Source of the DNA: Pontibacter roseus DSM 17521
GTDB lineage: Bacteria > Bacteroidota > Bacteroidia > Cytophagales > Hymenobacteraceae
NCBI RefSeq assembly: GCF_000373265.1
Contig: NZ_KB890766.1
Location: forward strand, 187 to 64,186
Length of the DNA stretch: 64,000 bases
Reading direction: 5' to 3'
The notes under the pieces are model-generated. The model was not told where the DNA came from and did not search any database. It saw only the letters and a list, made by a program, of their open reading frames with translations. Below are positions 8,535-40,671 of this stretch, one piece after another. The translations under genes and the position numbers were made by a program. The first letter of the stretch is position 1; the number at the start of each line of letters is the position of its first letter.

Positions 8535-10475
8535 TTATTTCTTACCGTCTACTTCTTCGTAGTCCACGTCGGTCACACCGCCGTCTTCAGCGCCTGCGTT
8601 CTGAGGGCCTGCGCCCGGACCGCCAGCCTGCTGGCCGTTGCCGCCAGCATCAGCGCCTGGGGCACCCTGCGTAGCCGCATACATCTCCTGAGAGGCGGCC
8701 TGCCAAGCGTTGTTCAGGCTTTCGATGGCTCTGTCTATACCTGCCACGTCTTTCGCACCGTGTGCTGTTCTGAGCTCGCCCAGCGCGGTCTCGATGTTAG
8801 ACTTGTTGCCGGCAGACAGTTTGTCGCCATACTCTTTCAGCTGCTTCTCGGTCTGGAAAATCATGGAGTCGGCCGCGTTCAGCTTCTCAATCTCTTCCTT
8901 CGCCTTCTTATCCGCCTCTGCGTTGGCTTCGGCTTCCTGACGCATACGCTCGATTTCCTGCTCGCTCAGACCAGAAGAGGCCTCGATGCGGATTTTCTGC
9001 TCTTTGCCAGTCGCTTTGTCCTTGGCAGTCACGTGCAGGATACCGTTGGCGTCGATATCGAAGATAACCTCGATTTGCGGAACACCACGCGGTGCTGGTG
9101 GAATACCGTCCAAGTGAAAGCGTCCGATGGTGCGGTTGTCCTTGGCCATTGGGCGCTCGCCCTGTAGCACGTGAATCTCCACAGAAGGCTGGTTGTCAGA
9201 TGCGGTTGAGAAAGTCTCAGACTTCTTCGTAGGTATAGTCGTGTTAGATTCGATGAGCTTGGTCATCACACCACCCATTGTCTCGATACCCAATGAAAGC
9301 GGGGTCACGTCCAGCAGAAGCACGTCTTTTACTTCACCTGTCAGTACACCACCCTGAATCGCAGCACCGATGGCCACCACCTCATCTGGGTTCACACCTT
9401 TAGAAGGCTTCTTGCCGAAGAACTTCTCTACTTCTTCCTGCACCTTCGGTATACGAGTAGAACCACCTACCAGAATCACCTCGTCGATGTCAGAAGTAGA
9501 CAAACCCGCATCCTGCAGGGCCTTCTTGCAAGGCTCCATGGAGCGGCGAATCAAGTCATCAGACAGCTGCTCGAACTTGGCGCGAGTGAGTTTGCGTACC
9601 AAGTGTTTCGGAACACCATCCACCGGCATGATGTAAGGCAGGTTGATTTCAGTCTCGTTAGAAGAAGAGAGCTCGATTTTGGCTTTCTCAGCGGCTTCCT
9701 TCAAGCGCTGAAGCGCCATTGGGTCTTTGCGCAGGTCCAGGCCTTCGTCTTTCTTGAACTCATCCGCCAGCCAGTTGATGATAACCTGGTCAAAGTCGTC
9801 ACCACCCAAGTGCGTGTCACCGTTGGTAGAGAGAACCTCAAACACGCCGTCGCCCAGCTCCAGAATGGATATATCGAAGGTACCGCCACCAAGGTCGAAT
9901 ACCGCTATTTTCTGGTCTTTGTGCTTCTTGTCCAAGCCATAGGCAAGCGCTGCTGCTGTTGGCTCGTTGATGATACGCTTCACCTCAAGGCCTGCAATCT
10001 GGCCGGCCTCTTTGGTAGCCTGGCGCTGTGCGTCGTTGAAGTAAGCAGGTACTGTGATTACGGCTTCCGTTACCGTAGTGCCCAGATAATCTTCGGCTGT
10101 GGCCTTCATCTTCTGAAGCACCATAGCAGAGATTTCCTGTGGCGTGTACTGGCGGTCGCCAATCTCCACGCGCACGGTGTTATTGCCACCCTGCACCACT
10201 TTGTAAGAAACCTGCTTCGATTCTTCGCTCACTTCATTGTAGCTGTGGCCCATGAAGCGCTTAATGGAAGCGATGGTGTTTTGAGGGTTTGTAATTGCCT
10301 GGCGCTTGGCAGGGTCACCTACCTTACGCTCTCCATTGCCGCCATCCAAAAATGCGACGATAGACGGTGTTGTTCTGCGGCCTTCGCTGTTGGGTATAAC
10401 CACCGGCTCGTTACCTTCCATTACGGCAACGCAGGAGTTGGTTGTACCTAAGTCAATACCAATTATCTTTCCCAT
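8535..10475 (-). CDS. dnaK: Molecular chaperone DnaK (Hsp70)
   Basis: This 646-residue cytoplasmic Hsp70 binds exposed hydrophobic segments in an ATP-driven cycle with DnaJ and GrpE. The N-terminal ATPase domain shows [13 protein letters not shown] at the start, a phosphate-2 motif in [11 protein letters not shown] and [10 protein letters not shown] near 350. The substrate-binding domain follows ([30 protein letters not shown]), then a helical lid and a Gly/Ala-rich linker ending in [11 protein letters not shown], the usual EEVD-like tail. Length fits the family. It is monocistronic here: dnaJ and grpE are not adjacent, it has its own terminator, and a candidate promoter lies about 60 bp upstream. 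Confidence 0.98.
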
Positions 10476-11718: not shown

Positions 11719-14700
11719 ATGAAAAGAACCCTTTACAGAACGGGCACAGCGGCCTGTCTGCTGCTGGCATTGACCTTGGCACCTACAGAGCTGGTGGCCC
11801 AAAAACAGAAGCAGCGCAGCAGTAGCGGCAAGCAAAAGGAAGCTGCCGCCCCATTTGACGCCAAGCTCTACAACGGTATAACCTGGCGCTCTATCGGCCC
11901 CTTCCGGGGTGGGCGCTCTGCCACTGTGACGGGTGTGCCGGGCAAACCCAATCTGTACTATATGGGCTCTGTTGGCGGAGGCGTGTGGCGCACCACCGAT
12001 GGCGGCTCTACCTGGGAGAATATTTCTGATAAATTCTTTGGAGGCTCTATTGGCGCAGTCGCTGTGAGTGAGGCCGACCCGAACGTGCTGTATGTGGGAG
12101 AAGGGGAGAAAACGGTGCGCGGCAACGTGTCCTCCGGCCATGGCGTCTGGAAGTCGGTGGATGCCGGCAAATCCTGGCAGCACATCGGGTTGAAGGATTC
12201 CAAGCACGTCGGCCGTATCCGTATCCACCCGCAGAACCCGGATATCGTGTATGTGGCGGCCATGGGTGATTTGTACAAGTCGCACGAGGAGCGGGGCGTG
12301 TTCAAGAGCACGGATGGCGGCAAGACCTGGAAGAAGACGCTCTTCGCCAACAAGGACGCCGGCGCCGTTGACCTCGTTATCGACCCGAATAACCCACGCA
12401 TCCTATACGCCACCACCTGGAACGTGCGCCGTAATCCCTATAGCCTATCTTCAGGCGGACCCGGTTCCGGCATTTGGAAGAGCACCGACGAAGGCGATTC
12501 TTGGAAGGAGATTTCACGGAACGAAGGCCTGCCAAAGGGTACGCTGGGCATCATAGGTATAGCCGTTTCTCCGGTCAACTCCAACCGCGTGTTTGCCATG
12601 GTGGAAGCGGAGGAGGGCGGCCTGTTCCGCTCCGATGACAGCGGCCTGACCTGGCAGAAGGTGAATGATGACCGCAACCTGCGCCAGCGTGCCTGGTACT
12701 ATACCCGCGTGTATGCCGACCCGAAAGACGAGGACGTGGTCTACGTGCTGAACGTGGCCTACCACCGCAGCAAAGACGGTGGCAAGACCTTCTCCTCCGC
12801 CTACGCTGGCCACTCAGACCACCACGACCTCTGGATTGCGCCTGAGAATCCTTCGCGCATGGTGATAGCCGACGACGGTGGTGCGCAGGTGACGTCTGAC
12901 GGCGGCATGAACTGGAGCACCATGGACAACCAGCCCACCGGTCAGTTCTACCGCGTGGTGACGGACAACCACTTCCCATACCGCATCTATGGCGCGCAGC
13001 AGGACAACTCCACCGTGCGCATCAGCCACCGCTCTACAGGGTATAGCATCACCGAGGATGACTGGGAAGAGACAGCGGGCTCGGAGAGTGCGCACCTGGC
13101 CGTGAATCCGGAGAACCCGGAAATAGTGTATGGCGGCAACTACGGCGGCTTCCTGTCAAGGGTAAATCATAGCAACGGGCAGGAGCGGGTGATTAACGTG
13201 TGGCCGGACAACCCGATGGGCCACGGCGCGGAAGGGATGAAGTACCGCTTCCAGTGGAACTTCCCCATCATGTTCTCGCCTAACGACCCCAAGAAGCTCT
13301 ATACCACCTCCAACCACGTGCACGTCACTTACAACGAAGGACAGTCCTGGGAGACCATCAGCCCGGACCTGACGCGCAACGATTCCACCAAACTGGGTCC
13401 GTCGGGAGGGCCTATTACGAAGGACAACACCAGCGTGGAGTACTACGGCACTATCTTCGCTATCAGCGAGTCGCCAGTAGAGCCGGGGGTGATTTGGACA
13501 GGCTCCGATGACGGCCTCATCCATGTGACGCGCGACAATGGCAAGAGCTGGACGAAGGTACAGCCGAAGGGGATGCCTGAGTGGATACAGATTAACAGCC
13601 TGGAGGCGCACCCGACCCTGAAAGGAGCCGCATACGTGGCCGCGACCATGTACAAGTCCGGTGATTTCAGCCCTTACCTGTACAAGACGACCGACTACGG
13701 CAAGAGCTGGACGAAGATTACTACAGGTATACCTGGTCATCACTTCACCCGTGTGGTGCGCGCTGACCCGAAACGCCAGGGCCTGCTCTACGCCGGTACG
13801 GAGTATGGCATGTACGTATCGTTCAACGACGGCAAAAGCTGGCAGCCGTTCCAACTGAACCTGCCGCTGGTGCCAATCACGGACCTGACCATCAAGAACG
13901 ATAATTTGATTGCCGCCACACAAGGCCGCAGCTTCTGGATTATTGATGACCTGACGCCGCTGCACCAGCTCAACGCAGGTATAGCTAACAGCAAATTCCA
14001 CCTCTACAAGCCGCTCGACACCTACAAAATGGACGGCGGCAACCGCGGCCTTTCCAAAACAGCTGGCGAGAACCACCCGGGCGGCGTGATGGTGCACTAC
14101 TACCTGCCACAGAAACCTGACTCTACCACGGTGGTGCAACTGGAAATTATGGACCAAAACGGAAAACTGATTCGCAGCTACATGAGCAACGCCAAAGAGA
14201 AAAAGGACAAGCTGGAGGTGAAGGAAGGGCTGAACCGCTTCGTTTGGGACATGCGCTACGCTGAGGCCAGCAAGTTTGACGGGCTGATTCTGTGGGGCGG
14301 CGGCACACAAGGGCCAAAGGCTATACCTGGAACCTACAAAGCGAAGCTGACGATGAATAAGGAGAGCCAGGAGACGGACTTCACCATCCTGCCGGACCCA
14401 CGTACCAAAGCCACGCCGGAAGACCGGGCCGCGCAGTTTGCCTTCCTGATGGAGGTGCGCGACAAGCTGACCGAAACACATGATGCCATCAAGGACATCC
14501 GCACCATGCGTACGCAACTCAACACGCTGAAAGGTAACCTGAAGGGGCAGGAGAATTACAAAGATGTAGTAGAATCTGCTACGGCCATCGACAAGAAAAT
14601 CACCAAAATAGAAGAGGCGCTGTATCAGACCAAGAATCGCAGCGGTCAGGACCCGCTCAACTACCCCATCCGGCTCAACAACAAGCTGGCGAACCTAGTG

Positions 14701-14910
14701 GGACAAGTGAGCACCGGCGACTTCCGGCCAACGAACCAGGCCTATGAGTTCAAGAAGGAAATCACGGCGCAGATTGATACACAGCTGAACCAGTTCCGAC
14801 AGGTGCAGGCCCAGGACGTGCCGGCGCTGAACAGGTTAGTGAAGGAGAAAGGGGTAGATGCCATCTCGGTGAAAAAAGCGGAGGCGGCTCCGGCAACCGG
14901 CTCGCTATAG
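11719..14910 (+). CDS. VPS10/BNR-repeat beta-propeller exported protein (copy 1)
   Basis: This 1063-residue exported protein belongs to the VPS10/sialidase-like propeller group often annotated as glycosyl hydrolase. A signal peptide (about residues 1-28, ending LVAQ) leads into many Asp-box motifs of the S/TxDxGxxW type: TTDGGSTW, SVDAGKSW, STDGGKTW, STDEGDSW, SDDSGLTW, TSDGGMNW, TRDNGKSW and TTDYGKSW among others, so two multi-blade propellers are likely between about 50 and 720. The last ~230 residues form strand-rich then helical, charged sequence with possible coiled coil. Asp boxes are structural; no catalytic site is evident, so enzyme activity is unproven. A second member lies at 23097-26030. 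Confidence 0.85.
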   Translation: MKRTLYRTGTAACLLLALTLAPTELVAQKQKQRSSSGKQKEAAAPFDAKLYNGITWRSIGPFRGGRSATVTGVPGKPNLYYMGSVGGGVWRTTDGGSTWENISDKFFGGSIGAVAVSEADPNVLYVGEGEKTVRGNVSSGHGVWKSVDAGKSWQHIGLKDSKHVGRIRIHPQNPDIVYVAAMGDLYKSHEERGVFKSTDGGKTWKKTLFANKDAGAVDLVIDPNNPRILYATTWNVRRNPYSLSSGGPGSGIWKSTDEGDSWKEISRNEGLPKGTLGIIGIAVSPVNSNRVFAMVEAEEGGLFRSDDSGLTWQKVNDDRNLRQRAWYYTRVYADPKDEDVVYVLNVAYHRSKDGGKTFSSAYAGHSDHHDLWIAPENPSRMVIADDGGAQVTSDGGMNWSTMDNQPTGQFYRVVTDNHFPYRIYGAQQDNSTVRISHRSTGYSITEDDWEETAGSESAHLAVNPENPEIVYGGNYGGFLSRVNHSNGQERVINVWPDNPMGHGAEGMKYRFQWNFPIMFSPNDPKKLYTTSNHVHVTYNEGQSWETISPDLTRNDSTKLGPSGGPITKDNTSVEYYGTIFAISESPVEPGVIWTGSDDGLIHVTRDNGKSWTKVQPKGMPEWIQINSLEAHPTLKGAAYVAATMYKSGDFSPYLYKTTDYGKSWTKITTGIPGHHFTRVVRADPKRQGLLYAGTEYGMYVSFNDGKSWQPFQLNLPLVPITDLTIKNDNLIAATQGRSFWIIDDLTPLHQLNAGIANSKFHLYKPLDTYKMDGGNRGLSKTAGENHPGGVMVHYYLPQKPDSTTVVQLEIMDQNGKLIRSYMSNAKEKKDKLEVKEGLNRFVWDMRYAEASKFDGLILWGGGTQGPKAIPGTYKAKLTMNKESQETDFTILPDPRTKATPEDRAAQFAFLMEVRDKLTETHDAIKDIRTMRTQLNTLKGNLKGQENYKDVVESATAIDKKITKIEEALYQTKNRSGQDPLNYPIRLNNKLANLVGQVSTGDFRPTNQAYEFKKEITAQIDTQLNQFRQVQAQDVPALNRLVKEKGVDAISVKKAEAAPATGSL

Positions 14911-19122: not shown

Positions 19123-20484
19123 TTACTGCCCCAGATAGCTGCCTGATATGACCTGTCGTGGTATCAGGAGCAACTCCTTTTGTCTGCCATGTATGTAGCG
19201 CATACCTTGCGGCATGAGGGCCGCCTGCTCCTCCAGCATTACCCGTATTTCTTTGTTGTTCCACGCAGGCAAGGTGACTTTCGCGTTCAATTCAATGGCG
19301 TAAACCGTGTTGGTTTGCAGCGGGTAATCCCCAGTACCAGGCACTCCCCGCTGCATGTCCCACATCCCGATGGCGGGTCCGGCTCCATGCCCGTGATAGC
19401 CGATGGGGTGGGAGTAGATGCTGGCCTCTATGTTCTCCTTTTTCGCCTGAGCTAATGTTGCTTTTAATACTTCGTTGCCGGTTCTGCCTGGCTTCATGTG
19501 GGAGGTGAGGATGTCCTGCAGGTGATTGCCGGTAGCCAGTGCCTTTTTCAGGTATGCTGGTGCGTCCTTTTCACCGGGTTTCAGCACGTAGGCCAGCTGC
19601 TGCACATCGGTGTTCAGTGTGAGGTAGGTGATACCCAAGTCTACATGGAGCAGGTCACCGGATTGGATGACTTCCTGGGCCGGGCGCTGTGCAAAGAAGG
19701 GCTCCGAATCGCCTGCTCCCGGATTTGCCCGTTGCACATCCACTGTCGGGTGAAACCAGGCCTCCAGCTTGAGTTCCGATATTCGCTCCCGGAACCACCA
19801 AACCACGTCTTCGGTCGTCGTCTCGCCCGGTTGGATGACTTGTTCTGAGAATCCCTCGGCTATGATGCGATGGCCTAACTGGCTGATTTGCTCATACAGG
19901 TCCAGTTCTGTTTGCGTCCTCACCTGCAGCCAATCCACGGCAAGCTTCTCCGCCGACACCACTCGTTGCTGTTGTGCCTTGGGCATGTGGTGCATCAGGC
20001 TGTCCCATTCCGTTTTTGTCAAGCCATCGGCATGGCCAAAGTGGGGGGAGGTGTTCAAGGCCAGCTTCTTGGGGTTGCGCTCCGCGATAAGGGCAGCCAG
20101 CCGTTTCCACTGGTTCGGTTCCTGCTCCGGATTCCAGGCGCCTTTGAACAGGTTGCCGATGTCATAGCGCGCCACCGCCAGGCGTTCCACTTGTTTGCCA
20201 TTGTCGTGGAAGAGCAGGATGGTCCTGCGGCGGGCGGCCAGCCAGGTGGCAGGCAACATGGTCCGGATGACCGGGTCCTCGTTGTACTCCCTGGCGATGA
20301 TGAGCCACATGTCCACCCCGTGCCTCCGCATCAAGTTGGGCAACAGGTTGTCGAGGCGTTCCTGCAGCAGTTTATCTTCCAGAGTGGCGCGTTCCCGCAA
20401 TGGCAGGATAGACGGAAGCTGTTGGGCACTGGCATCAGCCAGGAACAGCAAGGACAAAAGAAGGAGGGGGAATAGTTTTCTCAT
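19123..20484 (-). CDS. Exported M24 aminopeptidase P-family metallopeptidase
   Basis: This ~453-residue protein starts with a signal peptide (MRKLFPLLLLSLLFLADASA-Q), the reason for choosing the start at 20484 over an upstream ATG. The N-terminal half is the creatinase-like domain; the C-terminal half is the pita-bread fold. Metal ligands can be followed: Asp in LLHVDLGITY, Asp in LNTDVQQLAY, His in SHPIGYHGHGAGP, and Glu in ELNAKV and MLEEQAAL. It would cut Xaa-Pro or similar bonds in periplasmic peptides. It is convergent with the TonB receptor, with only 10 bp between stops and no terminator visible there. Confidence 0.87.
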   Translation of the reverse strand: MRKLFPLLLLSLLFLADASAQQLPSILPLRERATLEDKLLQERLDNLLPNLMRRHGVDMWLIIAREYNEDPVIRTMLPATWLAARRRTILLFHDNGKQVERLAVARYDIGNLFKGAWNPEQEPNQWKRLAALIAERNPKKLALNTSPHFGHADGLTKTEWDSLMHHMPKAQQQRVVSAEKLAVDWLQVRTQTELDLYEQISQLGHRIIAEGFSEQVIQPGETTTEDVVWWFRERISELKLEAWFHPTVDVQRANPGAGDSEPFFAQRPAQEVIQSGDLLHVDLGITYLTLNTDVQQLAYVLKPGEKDAPAYLKKALATGNHLQDILTSHMKPGRTGNEVLKATLAQAKKENIEASIYSHPIGYHGHGAGPAIGMWDMQRGVPGTGDYPLQTNTVYAIELNAKVTLPAWNNKEIRVMLEEQAALMPQGMRYIHGRQKELLLIPRQVISGSYLGQ

Positions 20485-20508
20485 ATAGGATTGGTGTGGC
20501 ACTGCTAA

Positions 20509-20516
20509 CAAATATA
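20509..20516 (-). promoter_or_regulatory. Candidate -7 element (TATATTTG) of the M24 gene
   Basis: On the minus strand the octamer is TATATTTG, a full match to the Bacteroidota TAnnTTTG -7 consensus, 24 bp before the chosen start. A -33 TTG is not exact (TTC at the expected spacing). Confidence 0.45.
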
Positions 20517-20558: not shown

Positions 20559-20589
20559 AGAAAAGGCAGCTATTGCAGCTGCCTTTTCT
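20559..20589 (-). terminator. Terminator of the outer-membrane protein gene
   Basis: A perfect 12-bp stem AGAAAAGGCAGC/GCTGCCTTTTCT (20559-20570 and 20578-20589) with a 7-nt loop lies 27 bp after the stop at 20617. The U-tract is inside the stem. Confidence 0.7.
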
Positions 20590-20616: not shown

Positions 20617-21204
20617 TCAAAAGCCCCAGTTCAGGTTTTGTAGTGTGATGCCCACCGATGCCAGTCTTTGCCCATTCTGAAAGCTCTGCACCGCTCCCCG
20701 CAAGCCCAGGGTAAGGTGCTGCGTTGCCCGCACATCCAGGTTCAGCGCCACCACAACGCCTGGTTGCAGCTGCCTGTTGGTGTGTACCACCGGTGCGAAT
20801 TCTGTGATTTCACCTTGGCTGTTGTAGCTGATGGAGAGTTGGTTGACATCCCTTTCGCTCGCATACCGCAGCACCGGCCCCACGGCAGGGTATAGCCGAA
20901 CGGCGCCCCAGCTGAGAAAATAGTTGTAGGTACCCTCCAAAGCCATACCATTCGATTTTTCGAACGTCTCGTAGCCTTGGCCCCAGTCGCGCGTTTGTTC
21001 AATGTAGGTGCCGGTAGCCGCTATCTCAAAGCCGGAGCGGGAGGACACCTGTTTCTGCACACCTGCCAGGAACCAATGACCGGGGAGGTCCCCATTGCCA
21101 GCCATCACGCCGCCATAACCGATTTTGGGCGCCCATGTATCCTGTGCAGAGGCGGTGAAGGCAGAAGCCAGGAGAAGGGAAAGCAGTAAAACTTTGAATT
21201 TCAT
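20617..21204 (-). CDS. Small outer-membrane beta-barrel-like protein
   Basis: This 195-residue protein has a classical signal peptide (MKFKVLLLSLLLASAFTASA-Q) followed by alternating hydrophobic and polar strands (FEIAATGTYIEQTR, MALEGTYNYFLSW, VVVALNLDVRATQHLTLGL) ending in an aromatic residue (NLNWGF), as expected for an 8-10-strand outer-membrane barrel or porin-like protein. No closer family is recognised. The gene stands alone between two terminators. The 21.2-21.34 kb upstream region is AT-rich and likely contains its promoter. Confidence 0.65.
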   Translation of the reverse strand: MKFKVLLLSLLLASAFTASAQDTWAPKIGYGGVMAGNGDLPGHWFLAGVQKQVSSRSGFEIAATGTYIEQTRDWGQGYETFEKSNGMALEGTYNYFLSWGAVRLYPAVGPVLRYASERDVNQLSISYNSQGEITEFAPVVHTNRQLQPGVVVALNLDVRATQHLTLGLRGAVQSFQNGQRLASVGITLQNLNWGF

Positions 21205-21343
21205 AAGTTGGAAAATTAGGAAGCGTTAGAGATGAAGAAAGGCAAAGCCGAACCTATACCTGAATATATAGAATTAGGTATAAAAAATATAACAATATAT
21301 GTGCCAGCTTTGTAGCGTTTCTCATCCAAGAGCAGGTTGCAAA

Positions 21344-21432
21344 CAACAAAGGCAGCCAAAAGGCTGCCTTTGTCACTGATAGCTTCTTAAATAAGCTTAA
21401 CTTCTGCTTCTTCTTTCCGGTGCTTTCAGGGT
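21344..21432 (-). pseudogene. Duplicated 3' end and terminator of a VPS10-like gene (direct repeat copy A)
   Basis: This 89-bp segment is nearly identical to 23044-23132, exactly 1700 bp away. It contains the codons TLKAPERRSRS-stop (21397-21432 read on the minus strand), matching the true gene end TLKALERRSRS-stop at 23097, plus the following terminator. Differences seen are two base changes and a 4-nt hairpin loop that is AAAA here and TTTT in the other copy. The reading frame is not continued upstream, so it is a tail fragment only. The two copies flank the DUF6056-like gene as direct repeats. Confidence 0.85.
21346..21373 (-). terminator. Duplicated terminator, now downstream of the DUF6056-like gene
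   Basis: An 11-12-bp stem CAAAGGCAGCC/GGCTGCCTTTG with loop AAAA lies about 80 bp past the stop at 21456. It is the copy A hairpin of the 89-bp direct repeat. Confidence 0.75.
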
Positions 21433-21455
21433 AGAGAAAATATTGGTGTTTTGGC

Positions 21456-22952
21456 TCACTCTATAATTGACTCGTTGCGTAAGGTGTTTTTTCCTGATTC
21501 TCGTAGAGTTGTGATATTCTCTTTAATAGGGGGATTAGGTGCGCTTAAGTGTACAGCTTCTTTCCCCCAATACCTAGCAAAGCCGCTATTAATCCACATG
21601 TCATCATTCTTCGACCCTTCCAATATATCTGAAAAGTAAATCGTTTTAGGTATAGCCGGTAGAGGTGGAACCTCACATTTTTTACAATCAGAGGCTTTCA
21701 ATGAGACATATCTTGAGGTTAATGCTTTATCGTAGGCAGCGGCTTTTCCAGACAGTAAATCTATATAGGCTGTGGTGACATTGCTGTCAACCGAGAGGAT
21801 GTTCAAAGCGAATAGCAGCAAGGCCGCAGTCGGTATAGCAGGCGAGAGTAGGTGCTCATATTTAAGTTGATGCCTGTAGGTATGCAGTGCCAACTGCAGA
21901 AGGTAAAACCAACCGAAAATGAAAAAGAAACAAATCACATTCTCGACTCTAGGCGTAGCACGCTCACCTGTAGACCAGGCAAAGGCGAAGTACATCAAGA
22001 AGATGGTTCCCAAAAAATACATGGCGGCTAACCTAAGGTCGACGTTGAACAGACGGCTCTCTCTTGTCTTATCAGCCAATGGAATCCCTATGAATAACAT
22101 GTACAGAACAGAGACTGCCAGTACAGGAGCCGACCACCTGTAGAAGGTAATCAAAGTCAGGAGGGCAGAATATACTGCTGACCACCAGAATCTGGAGGCA
22201 TTGGGATGGTCGTTCATGCGGGCGTAGTTGCCAGGTGCCAGCACTGCTATTAAACACGAAGCAACGCAAATAGTAAAAAGGAGCAACAGGTATGGCCGGG
22301 CCTCTTTGTTTTTTAGGTTAGTAACAAGAAGCAGCAAGAGTGTCGTGAAAGCCAATATCAGTGACATCTCATTTGAACCAACAATGGCGATGCAGCTAAT
22401 ACTAGCCATGGCTATATAAGATAATTTTGCTGCGGTGTTTTCTGATTGAAAGAAGGCATAAAGTAAGCTGAGCATCAGAAGCATCAGAATGTTGGGAAAT
22501 TGATAGGTTGCATAGGTAGTGAAAAAGTAGAAACCCTCAGCCGTGCTTGGAATCAGAAGCAGGTATAGACAGATGAGGATTGCAGTTAGAGTGAACGCCT
22601 TCAGCTTGCTTAATTCCCCTTTAATTACAAGGTTGATGAGCCAGTATACCTGTATGCAGAAAACGATAAGCGTTAAACAAGCATAGAGTTTATAGACTTT
22701 TAAAGACTCTGTCGTTAGGGGATTGATTCTTACAATTGCCGTCCCAAAGTATCTTCCTGACCAATTGAGATAGAATTCAACTTGCGACTCAAAGAAGCTC
22801 AGGGTTGTGTCACGCACCGCAAAACTGAAATCGTCGGCGGTTGGATGAGTGAAAAGGGTGAGAAGCAGGAAAGGCAGTAAGGTATAAACACTTATTGTAA
22901 TAAGTATAACACCAATGTAAAGGGATGGACTTTGTTGCCGTTCTTGTAACAT
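21456..22952 (-). CDS. Polytopic membrane protein, DUF6056/glycosyltransferase-like
   Basis: This 498-residue integral membrane protein has about 10-11 hydrophobic helices. The first periplasmic loop has HPTADDFSFAV, with a DD pair as in DUF6056 and related GT-C-like membrane glycosyltransferases, and then LNWSGRYFGTAIVRINP. It may use lipid-linked sugars, but this is a fold-level guess. A C-terminal soluble part of about 100 residues follows. It is more AT-rich in codon use than its neighbours and is bracketed by an 89-bp direct repeat that duplicates the adjacent gene's tail, so it is probably an insertion into an older gene order. Confidence 0.7.
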   Translation of the reverse strand: MLQERQQSPSLYIGVILITISVYTLLPFLLLTLFTHPTADDFSFAVRDTTLSFFESQVEFYLNWSGRYFGTAIVRINPLTTESLKVYKLYACLTLIVFCIQVYWLINLVIKGELSKLKAFTLTAILICLYLLLIPSTAEGFYFFTTYATYQFPNILMLLMLSLLYAFFQSENTAAKLSYIAMASISCIAIVGSNEMSLILAFTTLLLLLVTNLKNKEARPYLLLLFTICVASCLIAVLAPGNYARMNDHPNASRFWWSAVYSALLTLITFYRWSAPVLAVSVLYMLFIGIPLADKTRESRLFNVDLRLAAMYFLGTIFLMYFAFAWSTGERATPRVENVICFFFIFGWFYLLQLALHTYRHQLKYEHLLSPAIPTAALLLFALNILSVDSNVTTAYIDLLSGKAAAYDKALTSRYVSLKASDCKKCEVPPLPAIPKTIYFSDILEGSKNDDMWINSGFARYWGKEAVHLSAPNPPIKENITTLRESGKNTLRNESIIE

Positions 22953-23043
22953 AAAAAATCGTGAATTAGATTGCTAAAAGTAAATATATTCAAAAGTTTA
23001 AAGTATCATTTAGAATCAATGACTTGAGAGGCAAGCCATGAAT

Positions 23044-23132
23044 CAACAAAGGCAGCCTTTTGGCTGCCTTTGTCACTGATAGCTTCTTAAATAAGCTTAA
23101 CTTCTGCTTCTTCTTTCCAGTGCTTTCAAGGT
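23044..23132 (-). repeat. 89-bp direct repeat copy B (native gene end plus terminator)
   Basis: This is the intact partner of 21344-21432. It spans the last 11 codons, the stop and the terminator of the VPS10-like gene at 23097-26030. Same orientation, 1700-bp offset. Confidence 0.88.
23046..23073 (-). terminator. Terminator of VPS10-like copy 2
   Basis: A stem CAAAGGCAGCC/GGCTGCCTTTG (23047-23057 and 23062-23072) has loop TTTT. It lies 24 bp after the stop. Confidence 0.8.
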
Positions 23133-26030
23133 GAAGTCCGATGTGGCTTTGCCGCCATCGGCCGTCTCTACCTCAACGGTATACTTGCCCGGCTGCAGGT
23201 AAATCACCTTGTTGTCGGCGGCAGTTACTTTCACCGTTTCCTCACCGTCTTTCTTGCTGCCGTTCAGGGCTGTTTCGTAGGCTTTGGCGTTGGCCTCGTC
23301 CACGGATAGGTTGTAGCGAACATAGTTTAGGCCGCGCTCGTTCTCATCCTTCAGCTCTTTCAGCAACTGCCCTTTATCCGTCTTGATGCGGATGGTGGTA
23401 GTGCCGGCCTGGGAGGTATAGAACGCGATGTCCATGGAAGGTTCCATGGCCTCGCTCCAGGCACCCCACTTCTGGCCCCAACGCGGATTGTACTGCACCG
23501 GCTGGAAGGCGAAGAGGTGCAGCTTTTGGTTCTGGACCTCAGGCGTCAGCTGCTGCAGGTGCTCCACATTGGCAATGTAAATGGAGCGGCCGTGCGTGCC
23601 CACCACCAAGTCGTTTTCGCGCGGGTGCACCACCAGGTCGTGCACGGCTACGGCTGGCATGCTGTTGCGCATCTGCATGAAAGTTTTGCCGCGGTCCAGT
23701 GAGATGTATAGGCCATGGTCGGTGCCAACGTACAGCAGGTTCGGGTTCTTTGGGTCCTCCTTCACTACGTTGATGGCCTCGGCGGGCAGGCCTGTGCCGA
23801 TGCGCTCCCACTTCTTGCCGTTGTCTTCCGATACGTACAGGTATGGCGTGAAATCATCCCAACGGTAGCCGTTGAGCGAGGTATAGACGCGGTTCTCGCT
23901 GTGGTTAGAGGCCACTACCGTGGACACCCACATGTTCTTGGGCAGCTTGTTCGAAATTTTATCCCAGTTGTTGCCGCCGTCTTTCGATACATGGATGGCA
24001 CCGTCATCGGAACCGGTATAGATAAGCCCGAAGCGCAGCGGCGACTCGTCAATGGAGGTCAGAGTGCCGTAGCCCACGTCTCCTTTCAGGCCGCCATTGG
24101 TCAGGTCACCGGAAAGGGTCTGCATGTCCTCGCCACGCTTCATGGAGCGGTGAAATTTGTTGGAGCCATAGTACAGGATGTCCTGGTTGTGGCGGCTCAG
24201 GTGGATAGGGGCTTCCCAGTTGTAGCGCAGTGGGCGCTCTCCTAGCTCATGCACCGGACGGATAGAGATGCGCTCGCCGGTGCGCTTGTTCAGGCGGGAA
24301 TAGTTGCCATACTGCGAACCCAGGTATACCGTATTGTTGTCGCGGGTGTCCACCTGCACCATCATGCCGTCGCCGCCGCCAATGCGCTGGTAGGGGTAGC
24401 GTCCGTTCTGCGTCCAGGCGGAGCTGAACTGGTAGTTGCTCGGGCCATACCAGGTGCCGTTGTCCTGCAAACCGCCATAGATGTTGTACGGCTTCTCCAT
24501 ATCCACCGCGATGGCGTAGAACTGGCCTACGGACGGGGAGTTGGCGATAGCCCAGGTCTTACCGTCATCGTAGGTAATGTTCAAGCCGCCGTCGTTTCCG
24601 TTGATGACGTAGCCGGGCTTGTCGGGGCTCACCCACAGGGCCTGGTGGTCGGAGTGCACGTTGTCGCCCTCGATGTTGCGGAAGGTCTTGCCGCCGTCAT
24701 CCGAAGTCAGTAGCGGAACACCCAGTATGTAAATCTTATCGGGGTTGTAAGGCGCCACACGCACCACGCCGAAGTAGTAGCCGTAGCTGGAGTACATGTC
24801 GTCGATGGGCTGGTCGTGCGTCTTCTTCCAGGCTTTGCCGCCATCGTCGGAGCGGTATACCTCAGCGCCTTTCACGGGAGCCTCCGTCGTCACAGCCAGC
24901 GGGTCTTCGAGGTAATCCGCCAGTGCAGAAGGTTTGATTTTGCCGCTCTTCACGTCCGCTTTCACCGTCTTGGCGCTATACCTGGCCGGGAAGCGGTTGT
25001 TGTCGAGGAAGTCGTTCAAAGCCTTATCATTCAACGCCAGGAAAGCCTCTGTGGTCATACCTTTGAACTGGTCTTTCTGCAACTCACCCGCCTTCGGCTC
25101 CTTCTTCTCTACAGCGCGCAACTCTTGGTTGTCCAGCAAGGCATAGATAGTGTTTGGGTTGCCCGGGAACAGGCTCAGGCCAATGCGTCCCACGCCATTG
25201 GAGGTCGGGAAGCCGCTGCCTTCGGTGGTTACGCGGGTCCAGGTGTTGCCTCCGTCCGTGGATTTGTGAATGCCGGATGTCTTGCCGCCCTCCACGAAAT
25301 CCCAGGCGCGGCGCTCGCGGTGCCACATGGCCGCATACACGTTGTTGGGGTTTTTCGGGTCCACTTCCAGGTCGATGGCGCCGGTGTTGTCGTCAATGTA
25401 GAGGGTCTTCTTCCATGTCTTGCCCCCGTCGGTGGTCTTGTATACCCCGCGGTCTTTATTTGGCGAATACAAGTGCCCCACGGCCGCTACCCACACGGTG
25501 TTGGGGTCTGTCGGGTGGATGACGATGCGTCCGATGTGGTGGGTGTCATCGAGGCCCATGTGCTGCCAAGTCTTGCCGCCGTCGCTGCTTTTGTACACGC
25601 CCACACCCGAGTAGGAGGAGCGGCTGGAGTTGCTCTCGCCGGTGCCTACCCAGATGGTCTCCTTGTTGTTCCAGTCCACGGCAATGTCGCCGATGGTCAT
25701 CACCGCTTCATTGTCGAAGAGCGGCTCAAAGGAGATGCCGTTGTTGGTGGTTCTCCAGAGTCCACCAGAAGCATAGGCCGCGTAAAAGTTAGTCGGGTCT
25801 TTTGGATTTACATCCAGGTCGGTGATGCGGCCGCTTTGCACCGTGGGGCCTACGTTGCGGAAGGCGAGGTTCTTGACGAGCGAGTTCTGCTCCAGTTGCT
25901 GGCGCTTCTCAAACCCCTGAAGCCTTTGCTGGGCAGATGTGTGGTTAGGCTGCTTGGCTTTCTTCTGAGCCTGCACAGCGCCCCCGCTCAGGGCCACCAG
26001 CAGCGCTACCGAAAGTATACGTTTTTGCAT
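23097..26030 (-). CDS. VPS10/BNR-repeat beta-propeller exported protein (copy 2)
   Basis: This 977-residue exported protein is a relative of the gene at 11719. After a signal peptide (MQKRILSVALLVALSGGAVQA-Q) come repeated Asp boxes (SSDGGKTW, TTDGGKTW, STDGGNTW, SDDGGKAW, SKDGGNNW, SEDNGKKW, SLDRGKTF), indicating two large propellers. The linker between them (about 300-400) holds a charged insertion absent from copy 1. The C-terminal ~110 residues look like an Ig-like beta domain ending ALERRSRS. Both copies share blocks such as NGGDGG/DDGG-rich turns and GRSI/FWI motifs near the propeller end. Glycosidase activity is often stated for this group but no active site is evident. Confidence 0.85.
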   Translation of the reverse strand: MQKRILSVALLVALSGGAVQAQKKAKQPNHTSAQQRLQGFEKRQQLEQNSLVKNLAFRNVGPTVQSGRITDLDVNPKDPTNFYAAYASGGLWRTTNNGISFEPLFDNEAVMTIGDIAVDWNNKETIWVGTGESNSSRSSYSGVGVYKSSDGGKTWQHMGLDDTHHIGRIVIHPTDPNTVWVAAVGHLYSPNKDRGVYKTTDGGKTWKKTLYIDDNTGAIDLEVDPKNPNNVYAAMWHRERRAWDFVEGGKTSGIHKSTDGGNTWTRVTTEGSGFPTSNGVGRIGLSLFPGNPNTIYALLDNQELRAVEKKEPKAGELQKDQFKGMTTEAFLALNDKALNDFLDNNRFPARYSAKTVKADVKSGKIKPSALADYLEDPLAVTTEAPVKGAEVYRSDDGGKAWKKTHDQPIDDMYSSYGYYFGVVRVAPYNPDKIYILGVPLLTSDDGGKTFRNIEGDNVHSDHQALWVSPDKPGYVINGNDGGLNITYDDGKTWAIANSPSVGQFYAIAVDMEKPYNIYGGLQDNGTWYGPSNYQFSSAWTQNGRYPYQRIGGGDGMMVQVDTRDNNTVYLGSQYGNYSRLNKRTGERISIRPVHELGERPLRYNWEAPIHLSRHNQDILYYGSNKFHRSMKRGEDMQTLSGDLTNGGLKGDVGYGTLTSIDESPLRFGLIYTGSDDGAIHVSKDGGNNWDKISNKLPKNMWVSTVVASNHSENRVYTSLNGYRWDDFTPYLYVSEDNGKKWERIGTGLPAEAINVVKEDPKNPNLLYVGTDHGLYISLDRGKTFMQMRNSMPAVAVHDLVVHPRENDLVVGTHGRSIYIANVEHLQQLTPEVQNQKLHLFAFQPVQYNPRWGQKWGAWSEAMEPSMDIAFYTSQAGTTTIRIKTDKGQLLKELKDENERGLNYVRYNLSVDEANAKAYETALNGSKKDGEETVKVTAADNKVIYLQPGKYTVEVETADGGKATSDFTLKALERRSRS

Positions 26031-38070: not shown

Positions 38071-38198
38071 TGGAAACTCACGGGTTGTCTGAACTTATAA
38101 CCGCCTGAATTCATTTTTATAAAGTATCCGCTATTCACCGTTTGGCCTTTCTGCCCTGCAGTGTGAGACTTGTTTATACTACACTACAACAGAAACCC

Positions 38199-39311
38199 AT
38201 GAAGCTGCAAAGCAAAGTAAAATTCGTCAACAAAGACAAAAGTCTGTTCTTTCCCACGCTCCGCAAACGGGTAGACAATTACTTCTTAGAGAACAGCCTG
38301 CCTAAAACGGCCAACACAGCCATGCTGGTCAAGAGCGTTGTGCTGATAGCGACTTATGTGTTGCCTTTCATCGCACTGCTGGCCTTACAGCCGGCCTGGC
38401 CGCTGGGGCTTCTGCTCTGGTTTGTGATGGGACTTGGGGTGGCAGGTATAGGCATGAGCGTGATGCACGACGCCAACCACGGTGCCTTCTCCAACAGCAA
38501 GCGCGTAAACGACCTCATGGGCCATACCTTGAACATGGTAGGCGGCTCAGCCTTCAATTGGAAACTACAGCACAACATCCTGCACCATACCTACACCAAC
38601 GTGGTCGAGATGGACGAGGACATACAGGACAGACTGGTGCTGCGTTTTAACCCTCACTCAAAGGTGAAGTTCTTCCACCGGCTGCAGTGGATGTACGCCT
38701 TTGCCTTCTATGGCCTGCTCACGCTCTATTGGGTGGTGGCCAAGGACTTTGTGCAATACAGGCTTTTCATCCGGAATGGCGTGAATACGAACACGGCGGC
38801 CGAAAACAGAACCTGGCTCCTGAAGCTCATCGGCATGAAGGTGCTGTACTTTTTCGTGGTGCTGGGTGTGCCGTCGCTGTTCTTCGGTATTCCCTTTGTG
38901 CAGGTGCTGCTGGGCTTCCTGCTGATGCACTTTGTGGCCGGTATCATACTCACGGTGGTGTTCCAATTGGCGCATACCGTGGAGGGCACCAGCCACCCAC
39001 GGCCGGACGAACACGGCAATATTGAGAACGACTGGGCCATACACCAGATGAACACCACTGTCAATTTCTCCCGGCATAATAAGTGGCTGTCGTGGTATGT
39101 GGGCGGGCTGAACTTCCAGATTGAGCACCACCTGTTCCCACGCGTGTGCCATGTGCATTACCCGGCCATAGCCCATATCGTGAAAGAAACCGCTGAGGAA
39201 TTCGGCATACCTTACATGGAAAACAAAACCTTCGGGCAGGCTGTGCGCTCACACATCGCTACCCTCTACCGTTTTGGCAGGCTGCCCAGCCTGAACGAGG
39301 CCATCGGGTAG
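38199..39311 (+). CDS. Membrane fatty-acid desaturase, tandem copy 1
   Basis: This ~370-residue integral-membrane di-iron desaturase has three His boxes: HDANH at 90-94, HNILHH at 125-130 and QIEHH at 307-311; the Gln-type third box resembles front-end (linoleoyl-CoA/delta-6-like) desaturases, but there is no cytochrome b5 domain. It would insert a cis double bond into acyl lipids with O2 and an electron donor. The start at 38199 (MKLQSKVKFVNKDK) matches the start of the second copy; an ATG at 38142 adds unmatched sequence. It is followed 241 bp later by a close paralogue. Confidence 0.9.
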   Translation: MKLQSKVKFVNKDKSLFFPTLRKRVDNYFLENSLPKTANTAMLVKSVVLIATYVLPFIALLALQPAWPLGLLLWFVMGLGVAGIGMSVMHDANHGAFSNSKRVNDLMGHTLNMVGGSAFNWKLQHNILHHTYTNVVEMDEDIQDRLVLRFNPHSKVKFFHRLQWMYAFAFYGLLTLYWVVAKDFVQYRLFIRNGVNTNTAAENRTWLLKLIGMKVLYFFVVLGVPSLFFGIPFVQVLLGFLLMHFVAGIILTVVFQLAHTVEGTSHPRPDEHGNIENDWAIHQMNTTVNFSRHNKWLSWYVGGLNFQIEHHLFPRVCHVHYPAIAHIVKETAEEFGIPYMENKTFGQAVRSHIATLYRFGRLPSLNEAIG

Positions 39312-39552: not shown

Positions 39553-40671
39553 ATGAAGCTTAAAGGCAAAGTAAAATTCGTCAACAAAGACAAAAGCCTG
39601 TTTTTCCCGACACTCCGCAAACGCGTAGACGCTTACTTCTCAGACAACAACCTTCCCAAGTCCGGCGACACCGGCCTGCTTATCAAGAGCATCATCCTGC
39701 TGCTTCTCTACCTGGTGCCCTTCGCACTGCTGCTCGCCTTTACGCCAGGTTTGGCGGTTAGTCTCGTGCTTTGGCTCGTTATGGGCGTGGGTGTGGCCGG
39801 CGTTGCCATGAGCGTGATGCACGACGCCAACCACGGCGCCTTCTCCAAGAGCAAGACGGTGAATTACCTGATGGCGCACTCGGTGAACCTGCTGGGCGCA
39901 TCGGCCTTCAACTGGAAGCTGCAGCACAACATCCTGCACCATACCTACACCAACGTGGTCGAGATGGACGAGGACATCGATGATATGGTCGTGCTGCGTT
40001 TTTCACCGCATACGAACGTCAGGTTCTTCCATAAGATACAGTGGGCCTATGCCTTGTTCTTCTACGGGTTGCTGACGCTGTATTGGGTGACCATAAAGGA
40101 TTTCGTGCAGTTCTTCCGGTATGTCCGGAATGGGGTGAACTCAAACTCAAAAGCGCAGAACAGGGTGGCGTTCCTGAAGATTGTGGCCTTCAAGGTGCTG
40201 TATTTCTTCTCTATCCTGGTGGCGCCGACGCTCATCTTCGGCATTCCTTTCTGGGAGGTGCTGCTAGGTTTCCTGCTGATGCATTTCGTGACGGGCATCA
40301 TCCTGTCCACGGTGTTCCAGCTGGCGCATACGGTGGAGGGCACCAGCCATCCGCTTCCCACGGAAACAGGCGTTATTGAAAACGACTGGGCGATACACCA
40401 GCTGAACACGACGGCCAATTTCTCGCGCAAGAGCAGGCTGCTGTCGTGGTATGTGGGTGGGCTGAACTTCCAGATTGAGCACCACTTGTTCCCGCGTATA
40501 TCGCATGTGCATTACCCTGCCATTGCTGACATTGTGAAAAAGACGGCGGCCGAGTACAACATCCCTTACCTGGAGAGCAAAACGTTCATGCAGGCCGTGC
40601 GCTCCCACTTAAATACCTTGCACCGCTTCGGCCGGCTGCAACTGCCCAACCTCAACGAGGTGATGGCGTAA
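39553..40671 (+). CDS. Membrane fatty-acid desaturase, tandem copy 2
   Basis: This 372-residue paralogue of the preceding gene has the same His boxes (HDANH, HNILHH, QIEHH) and the same start block. Long stretches of DNA are nearly the same in both genes, for example the 29 bases around the KVKFVNKDKS codons, pointing to a fairly recent duplication or gene conversion. Differences cluster in the region after the second His box (DDMVVLRFSPHTNV versus QDRLVLRFNPHSKV) and in the N-terminal helices, which may alter regiochemistry. A terminator follows. Confidence 0.9.
   Translation: MKLKGKVKFVNKDKSLFFPTLRKRVDAYFSDNNLPKSGDTGLLIKSIILLLLYLVPFALLLAFTPGLAVSLVLWLVMGVGVAGVAMSVMHDANHGAFSKSKTVNYLMAHSVNLLGASAFNWKLQHNILHHTYTNVVEMDEDIDDMVVLRFSPHTNVRFFHKIQWAYALFFYGLLTLYWVTIKDFVQFFRYVRNGVNSNSKAQNRVAFLKIVAFKVLYFFSILVAPTLIFGIPFWEVLLGFLLMHFVTGIILSTVFQLAHTVEGTSHPLPTETGVIENDWAIHQLNTTANFSRKSRLLSWYVGGLNFQIEHHLFPRISHVHYPAIADIVKKTAAEYNIPYLESKTFMQAVRSHLNTLHRFGRLQLPNLNEVMA

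Follow-up and report, generated by a model that had tools for sequence, protein, structure and literature searches.

A duplicated VPS10 gene tail and terminator flank a DUF6056 gene inserted in a variable gene slot of Pontibacter

Gene content of the locus

We analyzed a 64,000-nucleotide stretch of the Pontibacter roseus DSM 17521 genome (the window; contig NZ_KB890766.1 of assembly GCF_000373265.1, positions 187 to 64,186), in which a gene for a DUF6056 membrane protein lies between two copies of the 3' end of a VPS10/sortilin-like gene. The window's genome, designated G000, comprised 4.58 Mb in 12 contigs in our searches. The genes in question lie on the minus strand in a variable slot bounded by convergent VPS10 and TonB-receptor genes. 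In the direction of reading, VPS10 (23097-26030, 977 amino acids (aa); PF15902, E = 7.4e-36) is followed by the DUF6056 gene (21456-22952, 498 aa), whose product matches PF19528 with E = 2.8e-22 and 79.5 bits, the gathering cut-off being 27. OMP195 (20617-21204, 195 aa), the gene directly downstream of VPS10 in relatives, comes next with its terminator at 20560-20588, and an M24 peptidase-like gene (M24; 19123-20511; PF00557, E = 3.8e-10) is the last gene of the slot. OMP195 is our own label, based on a signal-like start and a C-terminal Phe judged by eye; the protein has no Pfam or NCBIfam family above the cut-off. VPS10 orthologues in ten sister species are 88-90% identical, and the closest other VPS10 gene of the same genome, on contig 7, reaches 73% protein identity. 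A further VPS10/sortilin-type gene (1063 aa) lies at 11719-14910 on the plus strand, about 8 kb from the VPS10 gene of the slot.

A repeated gene tail brackets the DUF6056 gene

The DUF6056 gene is bracketed by a 92-nucleotide (nt) direct repeat at an offset of 1700 nt, identical at 85 of 92 positions (92.4%). Each copy consists of the last 11 codons of VPS10, the stop codon, a short spacer and a strong intrinsic terminator. Copy 1 (23041-23132, minus strand) is joined to the intact VPS10 gene, and copy 2 (21341-21432, minus strand) is a relic of the VPS10 tail with its terminator. A first-pass annotation of this locus had described the same content and offset for a repeat of 89 bp, which is 3 nt short at one end. 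The repeat is not a chance similarity, since the two copies are matched in their own genome with E = 2.3e-42 and 9.7e-33 and no third full copy was found in the 4.58 Mb at E up to 0.001. The seven mismatches comprise two in the coding tail, four in the terminator loop and one directly past the loop hairpin.

Terminator 1 (23046-23073, minus strand) has a perfect 12-bp stem, the loop AAAA and a folding energy of -21.2 kcal/mol. Terminator 2 (21346-21373, minus strand; -21.8 kcal/mol) is its exact reverse complement, so that the 28-nt hairpin is wholly inverted between the copies (CCAAAAGG versus CCTTTTGG). One of the two hairpins was thus flipped after the duplication with its stem kept. With the relic terminator behind DUF6056, the VPS10, DUF6056 and OMP195 genes would each end in a terminator of their own, that of the inserted gene being supplied by the relic.

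The first-pass annotation had also considered the scar of a lost tandem paralogue. The second tail is indeed a true and recent copy of this VPS10 gene, and it does not derive from an old paralogue, the closest other VPS10 gene being the 73% one. If the entire VPS10 gene, or a larger segment, had recently been duplicated in tandem, with the second copy reduced to its tail and DUF6056 present or later inserted between them, the end point would be the same as for a shorter duplication with loss. However, nothing of VPS10 was seen upstream of the 11 codons at copy 2, and DUF6056 would need a separate account. We consider a duplication of this length quite unlikely.

The insertion is probably recent and specific to this lineage

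OMP195 was sought in 50 Pontibacter genomes, that of the window included, and was present in 10. One of them, G023, has a match of 44% identity, and no VPS10 was seen in the surrounding 15 kb that were read. In all eight comparable relatives (G004, G009, G014, G016, G028, G059, G063, and G067), OMP195 comes directly after VPS10, the tblastn matches of the two genes lying 182-224 nt apart. The corresponding gap in the window is 1895 nt, which equals 195 nt plus one 1700-nt unit. Therefore, the DUF6056 gene and one tail were inserted at the 3' end of VPS10 in this lineage. The empty site that the first-pass annotation had proposed to look for in close relatives is thus present in each of them, although it is expected under every insertion model. 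Two other clade members without OMP195 (G010 and G015) carry M24 and another TonB receptor after VPS10.

Which of the two tails is native follows from their downstream flanks. Copy 2 is followed by the region upstream of OMP195. Relatives conserve this region, and a motif within it was found in nine of nine genomes including that of the window, so copy 2 marks the original VPS10-OMP195 junction. Copy 1 links VPS10 to the upstream region of DUF6056. The motif, TGGCAC-N5-TTGT at 21292-21306 on the minus strand, stands at the same place in all nine genomes with OMP195 in the slot, and its pattern occurs at four further places in the stretches scanned. It resembles a sigma-54 promoter.

The duplication is young relative to the divergence of these species. 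Between the stop codon and the terminator loop, the two tails do not differ at all, whereas the same stretch differs in relatives, and VPS10 has a third-position identity of 0.50-0.74 with any one of nine relatives in all 100-codon bins. Over the 71 nt before the loop, the tails show two differences. At one residue of the 11-codon tail, copy 1 in the intact gene encodes Leu and copy 2 encodes Pro; the aligned relatives have Pro (6/9) or Gln (3/9). In the VPS10 tree, the genome of the window branches as the sister of the ten others (support 89/85). The same third-position identities led us to reject an imported homologous tract within VPS10, none being visible against the nine relatives.

A recent insertion in this lineage, made without a recombinase of its own, is the probable reading. 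DUF6056 is the only open reading frame of at least 80 aa in the 1608 nt between the tails; the first-pass annotation had likewise seen no integrase. Pfam gave no recombinase in DUF6056, VPS10, OMP195, or M24, while genes farther off were not all examined. Tyrosine integrases insert into gene 3' ends, and the first-pass annotation had compared the locus to an integration at a gene 3' end. The insertion itself is real, and the geometry of an integrase-borne cassette that rebuilds the gene end does fit, with the intact end on one side of the insert and its duplicate on the other. However, the cargo is one gene without an integrase beside it, and the site is not reused, since the tail has no other full copy in the genome. 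DUF6056 has no duplicated tails around it in G016 or G028 (repeats of at least 35 nt), where the sole long repeat noted was 39 nt inside VPS10 of G028. Neither the phage nor the plasmid collection gave a tblastn match to DUF6056 at E 1e-5, and the gene was rejected as phage or plasmid cargo. Site-specific integration at the gene 3' end is therefore very improbable.

The DUF6056 gene and its relatives

The DUF6056 gene is patchily distributed. Of 59 genomes searched, 20 gave a match; across 204 genomes of the family, with a cut-off of E 1e-80, 23 did so. Both counts include the genome of the window. The nearest relatives are those of G016 (69% identical) and G028 (64%), both located in the same slot. 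There the gene has another, presumably ancestral, position in the neighborhood: the order is VPS10-OMP195-DUF6056-TonB receptor in G016 and VPS10-OMP195-M24-DUF6056-TonB receptor in G028. The suggestion that the same cargo might be found elsewhere between gene tails thus held for the cargo, which occupies other positions of the slot, but not for the tails. Across the 11 clade genomes, the slot holds OMP195 alone in five and, in one genome each, OMP195-M24, OMP195-DUF6056, OMP195-M24-DUF6056, DUF6056-OMP195-M24, M24 without the TonB receptor, and another TonB receptor. The slot of G006 (L041:7846-11539) has different content again, with metallopeptidase-like and thiamine pyrophosphate (TPP)-enzyme-like genes that were named by eye.

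We read 18 further stretches with a DUF6056 homologue, from 16 genomes. The gene lies just upstream of dnaK in seven of them (G017, G026, G029, G030, G032, G060, and G065); the other 11 gave no dnaK match within the stretch. In the window, dnaK is located at 8535-10475, about 6 kb past the TonB receptor that ends the slot. Together with the slot neighbors in G016 and G028, the proximity to dnaK indicates that the DUF6056 gene often remains in one chromosomal region and shifts its position locally.

Some horizontal exchange of at least one DUF6056 copy is likely. The genes of G016 and G028 are 64.5% identical, far less than their OMP195 (80%) and TonB-receptor (90%) genes. The DUF6056 tree groups G000 with G016 (89/86), and a pairing of G016 with G028, as in the species grouping, was not rejected (p-AU 0.096). 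G000 and G016 are 69% identical in DUF6056, 62% in OMP195, and 73% in the TonB receptor; the intermediate DUF6056 value is as expected from vertical descent.

The inserted gene is AT-richer than its neighbors, as the first-pass annotation had noted, with 43.2% GC in comparison with 56-58% for VPS10, OMP195, and M24. We rejected this as a sign of recent foreign origin. The slot orthologues are equally AT-rich (G016, 39.3%; G028, 42.4%) in stretches of 51-52%, the range being 51-53% with the window's locus included, and low GC is uninformative about a recent foreign source because the slot copies have it in common. Six more distant homologues have 41-50% GC, near their surroundings of 44-52%.

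The function of the protein was approached by several routes. A structure predicted from two sequences had a mean pLDDT of 39.7. A profile of 16 homologues returned two chance-level rows against solved structures (E 0.39 and 0.45), no NCBIfam family matched up to E 0.1, and a literature search found no paper with the word DUF6056. The pair DD at residues 40-41 is invariant, which we take to recall GT-C glycosyltransferases.

Possible routes of the insertion

The structure resembles a scar of ordinary recombination within a variable chromosomal region. Two routes to it deserve most attention, and each falls somewhat short of an even chance. We tentatively favor a recent, lineage-specific relocation of the gene within the slot by local tandem duplication and loss. 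The ancestor would have had the order VPS10-terminator-OMP195-terminator-DUF6056, as G016 has today. A segment from within the VPS10 tail to just beyond DUF6056 would have been duplicated in tandem. OMP195 would have been lost from the first copy, perhaps through recombination of the two similar-stemmed terminators, and DUF6056 from the second. The end product would be VPS10-terminator-DUF6056 followed by the VPS10 tail with its terminator, OMP195, and M24. We infer the order of these events, the crossover at the terminator, and the local source.

The second route, a one-ended import, is also a serious possibility. A fragment with a terminator and DUF6056 from another Pontibacter would have paired through a short homologous stretch, the terminator stem. 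Illegitimate joining of its opposite end to the sister strand, at a point 11 codons inside the VPS10 tail, would have given the insert and the 92-nt duplication at once. This needs one event instead of three, and it accords with the presence of DUF6056 in 3 of 11 clade genomes and with the discordant identities and tree of the gene. However, the closest DUF6056 found is only 69% identical, and the donor is not among the genomes compared. VPS10 is also without an import tract, but a close unsampled relative would leave none visible. Local duplication with loss is barely ahead of such an import because the divergence between G000 and G016 is as vertical descent gives and because the gene is often regional.

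The two joints of the insert differ. The terminator joint has the stem in common, and inspection by eye revealed no clear homology at the other joint, 23 nt past the DUF6056 stop codon. Four sites in the 4.58 Mb carry the strict stem, AAAGGCAGC..GCTGCCTTT. Three of them are here, in both tails and in the OMP195 terminator, and one is on another contig. The sequence after the stem is GTTGATTCATGG in copy 1, GTTGATTAATGG in the OMP195-DUF6056 terminator of G016, and GTTGTTTGCAA in the native copy 2. Just past the stem, copy 1 is closer to the G016 terminator (GTTGATTnATGG) than to copy 2, which would weakly fit a crossover between VPS10-type and OMP195-type terminators.

Several observations weigh against local duplication with a crossover at the terminators. 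The copy 1 spacer aligns with the OMP195-DUF6056 spacer of G016 with a score of 38, which 3% of mononucleotide shuffles reach and which is one of eight targets; a control target, the VPS10-OMP195 spacer of G028, scores higher (42, 1.6% of shuffles). The G016 terminator carries the strict stem on one arm only. In the window, the flank past the present OMP195 terminator does not match the copy 1 flank beyond the stem, and this counts against a recent duplication because a recent, unaltered duplicate should match. Neither a second DUF6056 nor a first OMP195 has left a visible relic. DUF6056 was not found in 8 of the 11 clade genomes (E 0.001 for five and 1e-80 for three) nor in their slots, so a local source needs several losses. 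The low identity between the G016 and G028 genes points to horizontal exchange, and duplication with loss takes one duplication and two deletions.

In a broader form, recombination in this Pontibacter slot would use like-stemmed intrinsic terminators as joints. Genes would then be shuffled singly between VPS10 and the TonB receptor, each arriving with a terminator of its own and able to enter, leave, or move past the others. We regard this generalization as unlikely. A literature search on terminators as recombination sites returned nothing, though it was too narrow to show absence from print. We compared 464 kb of contig 6 with itself, covering about 10% of the genome, for repeats of at least 40 nt and 85% identity within 10 kb. 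Five rows resulted: the present repeat, a pair of identical tRNA genes (anticodon TTT, read by eye), and three more at 448-462 kb. Should terminators turn out to be common joints, they would constitute a family of short repeats that direct the order of genes.

Relation to known systems

The locus is a clean, small example of the duplication-loss or one-ended recombination kinds and not a new system. The SNAP model explains changes of bacterial gene order by tandem duplication with loss (PMC7055797; related PMC8046335). As there, a duplicated stretch from which different genes are lost in each copy would give a new order (PMC7055797); in the present case a tail would remain at the joint. Unlike the cases described there, the stretch here does not exceed a few kb. 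No intermediate with the full duplication turned up in the 10 other clade slots read, and of the presumed copies only the VPS10 tail is left. A literature search on tandem duplication and random loss brought up mitochondrial studies. Homology-facilitated illegitimate recombination has been proposed for immunity arrays of the Vibrio type VI secretion system (PMC5361080; PMC3240628). That work describes a similar combination of one homologous and one illegitimate joint, with older parts left downstream of the new gene (PMC5361080). There, however, the incoming module displaces a gene, whereas no loss is seen here and the tail of the target is duplicated.

The locus offers a fresh joint at which a gene has changed its neighbors without a mobile element in sight. 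The short gene tail left behind could be mistaken for an integration site. Elsewhere in the window, two fatty acid desaturase genes stand in tandem on the plus strand (38142-39311 and 39553-40671), with 74% DNA identity over about 1.1 kb.
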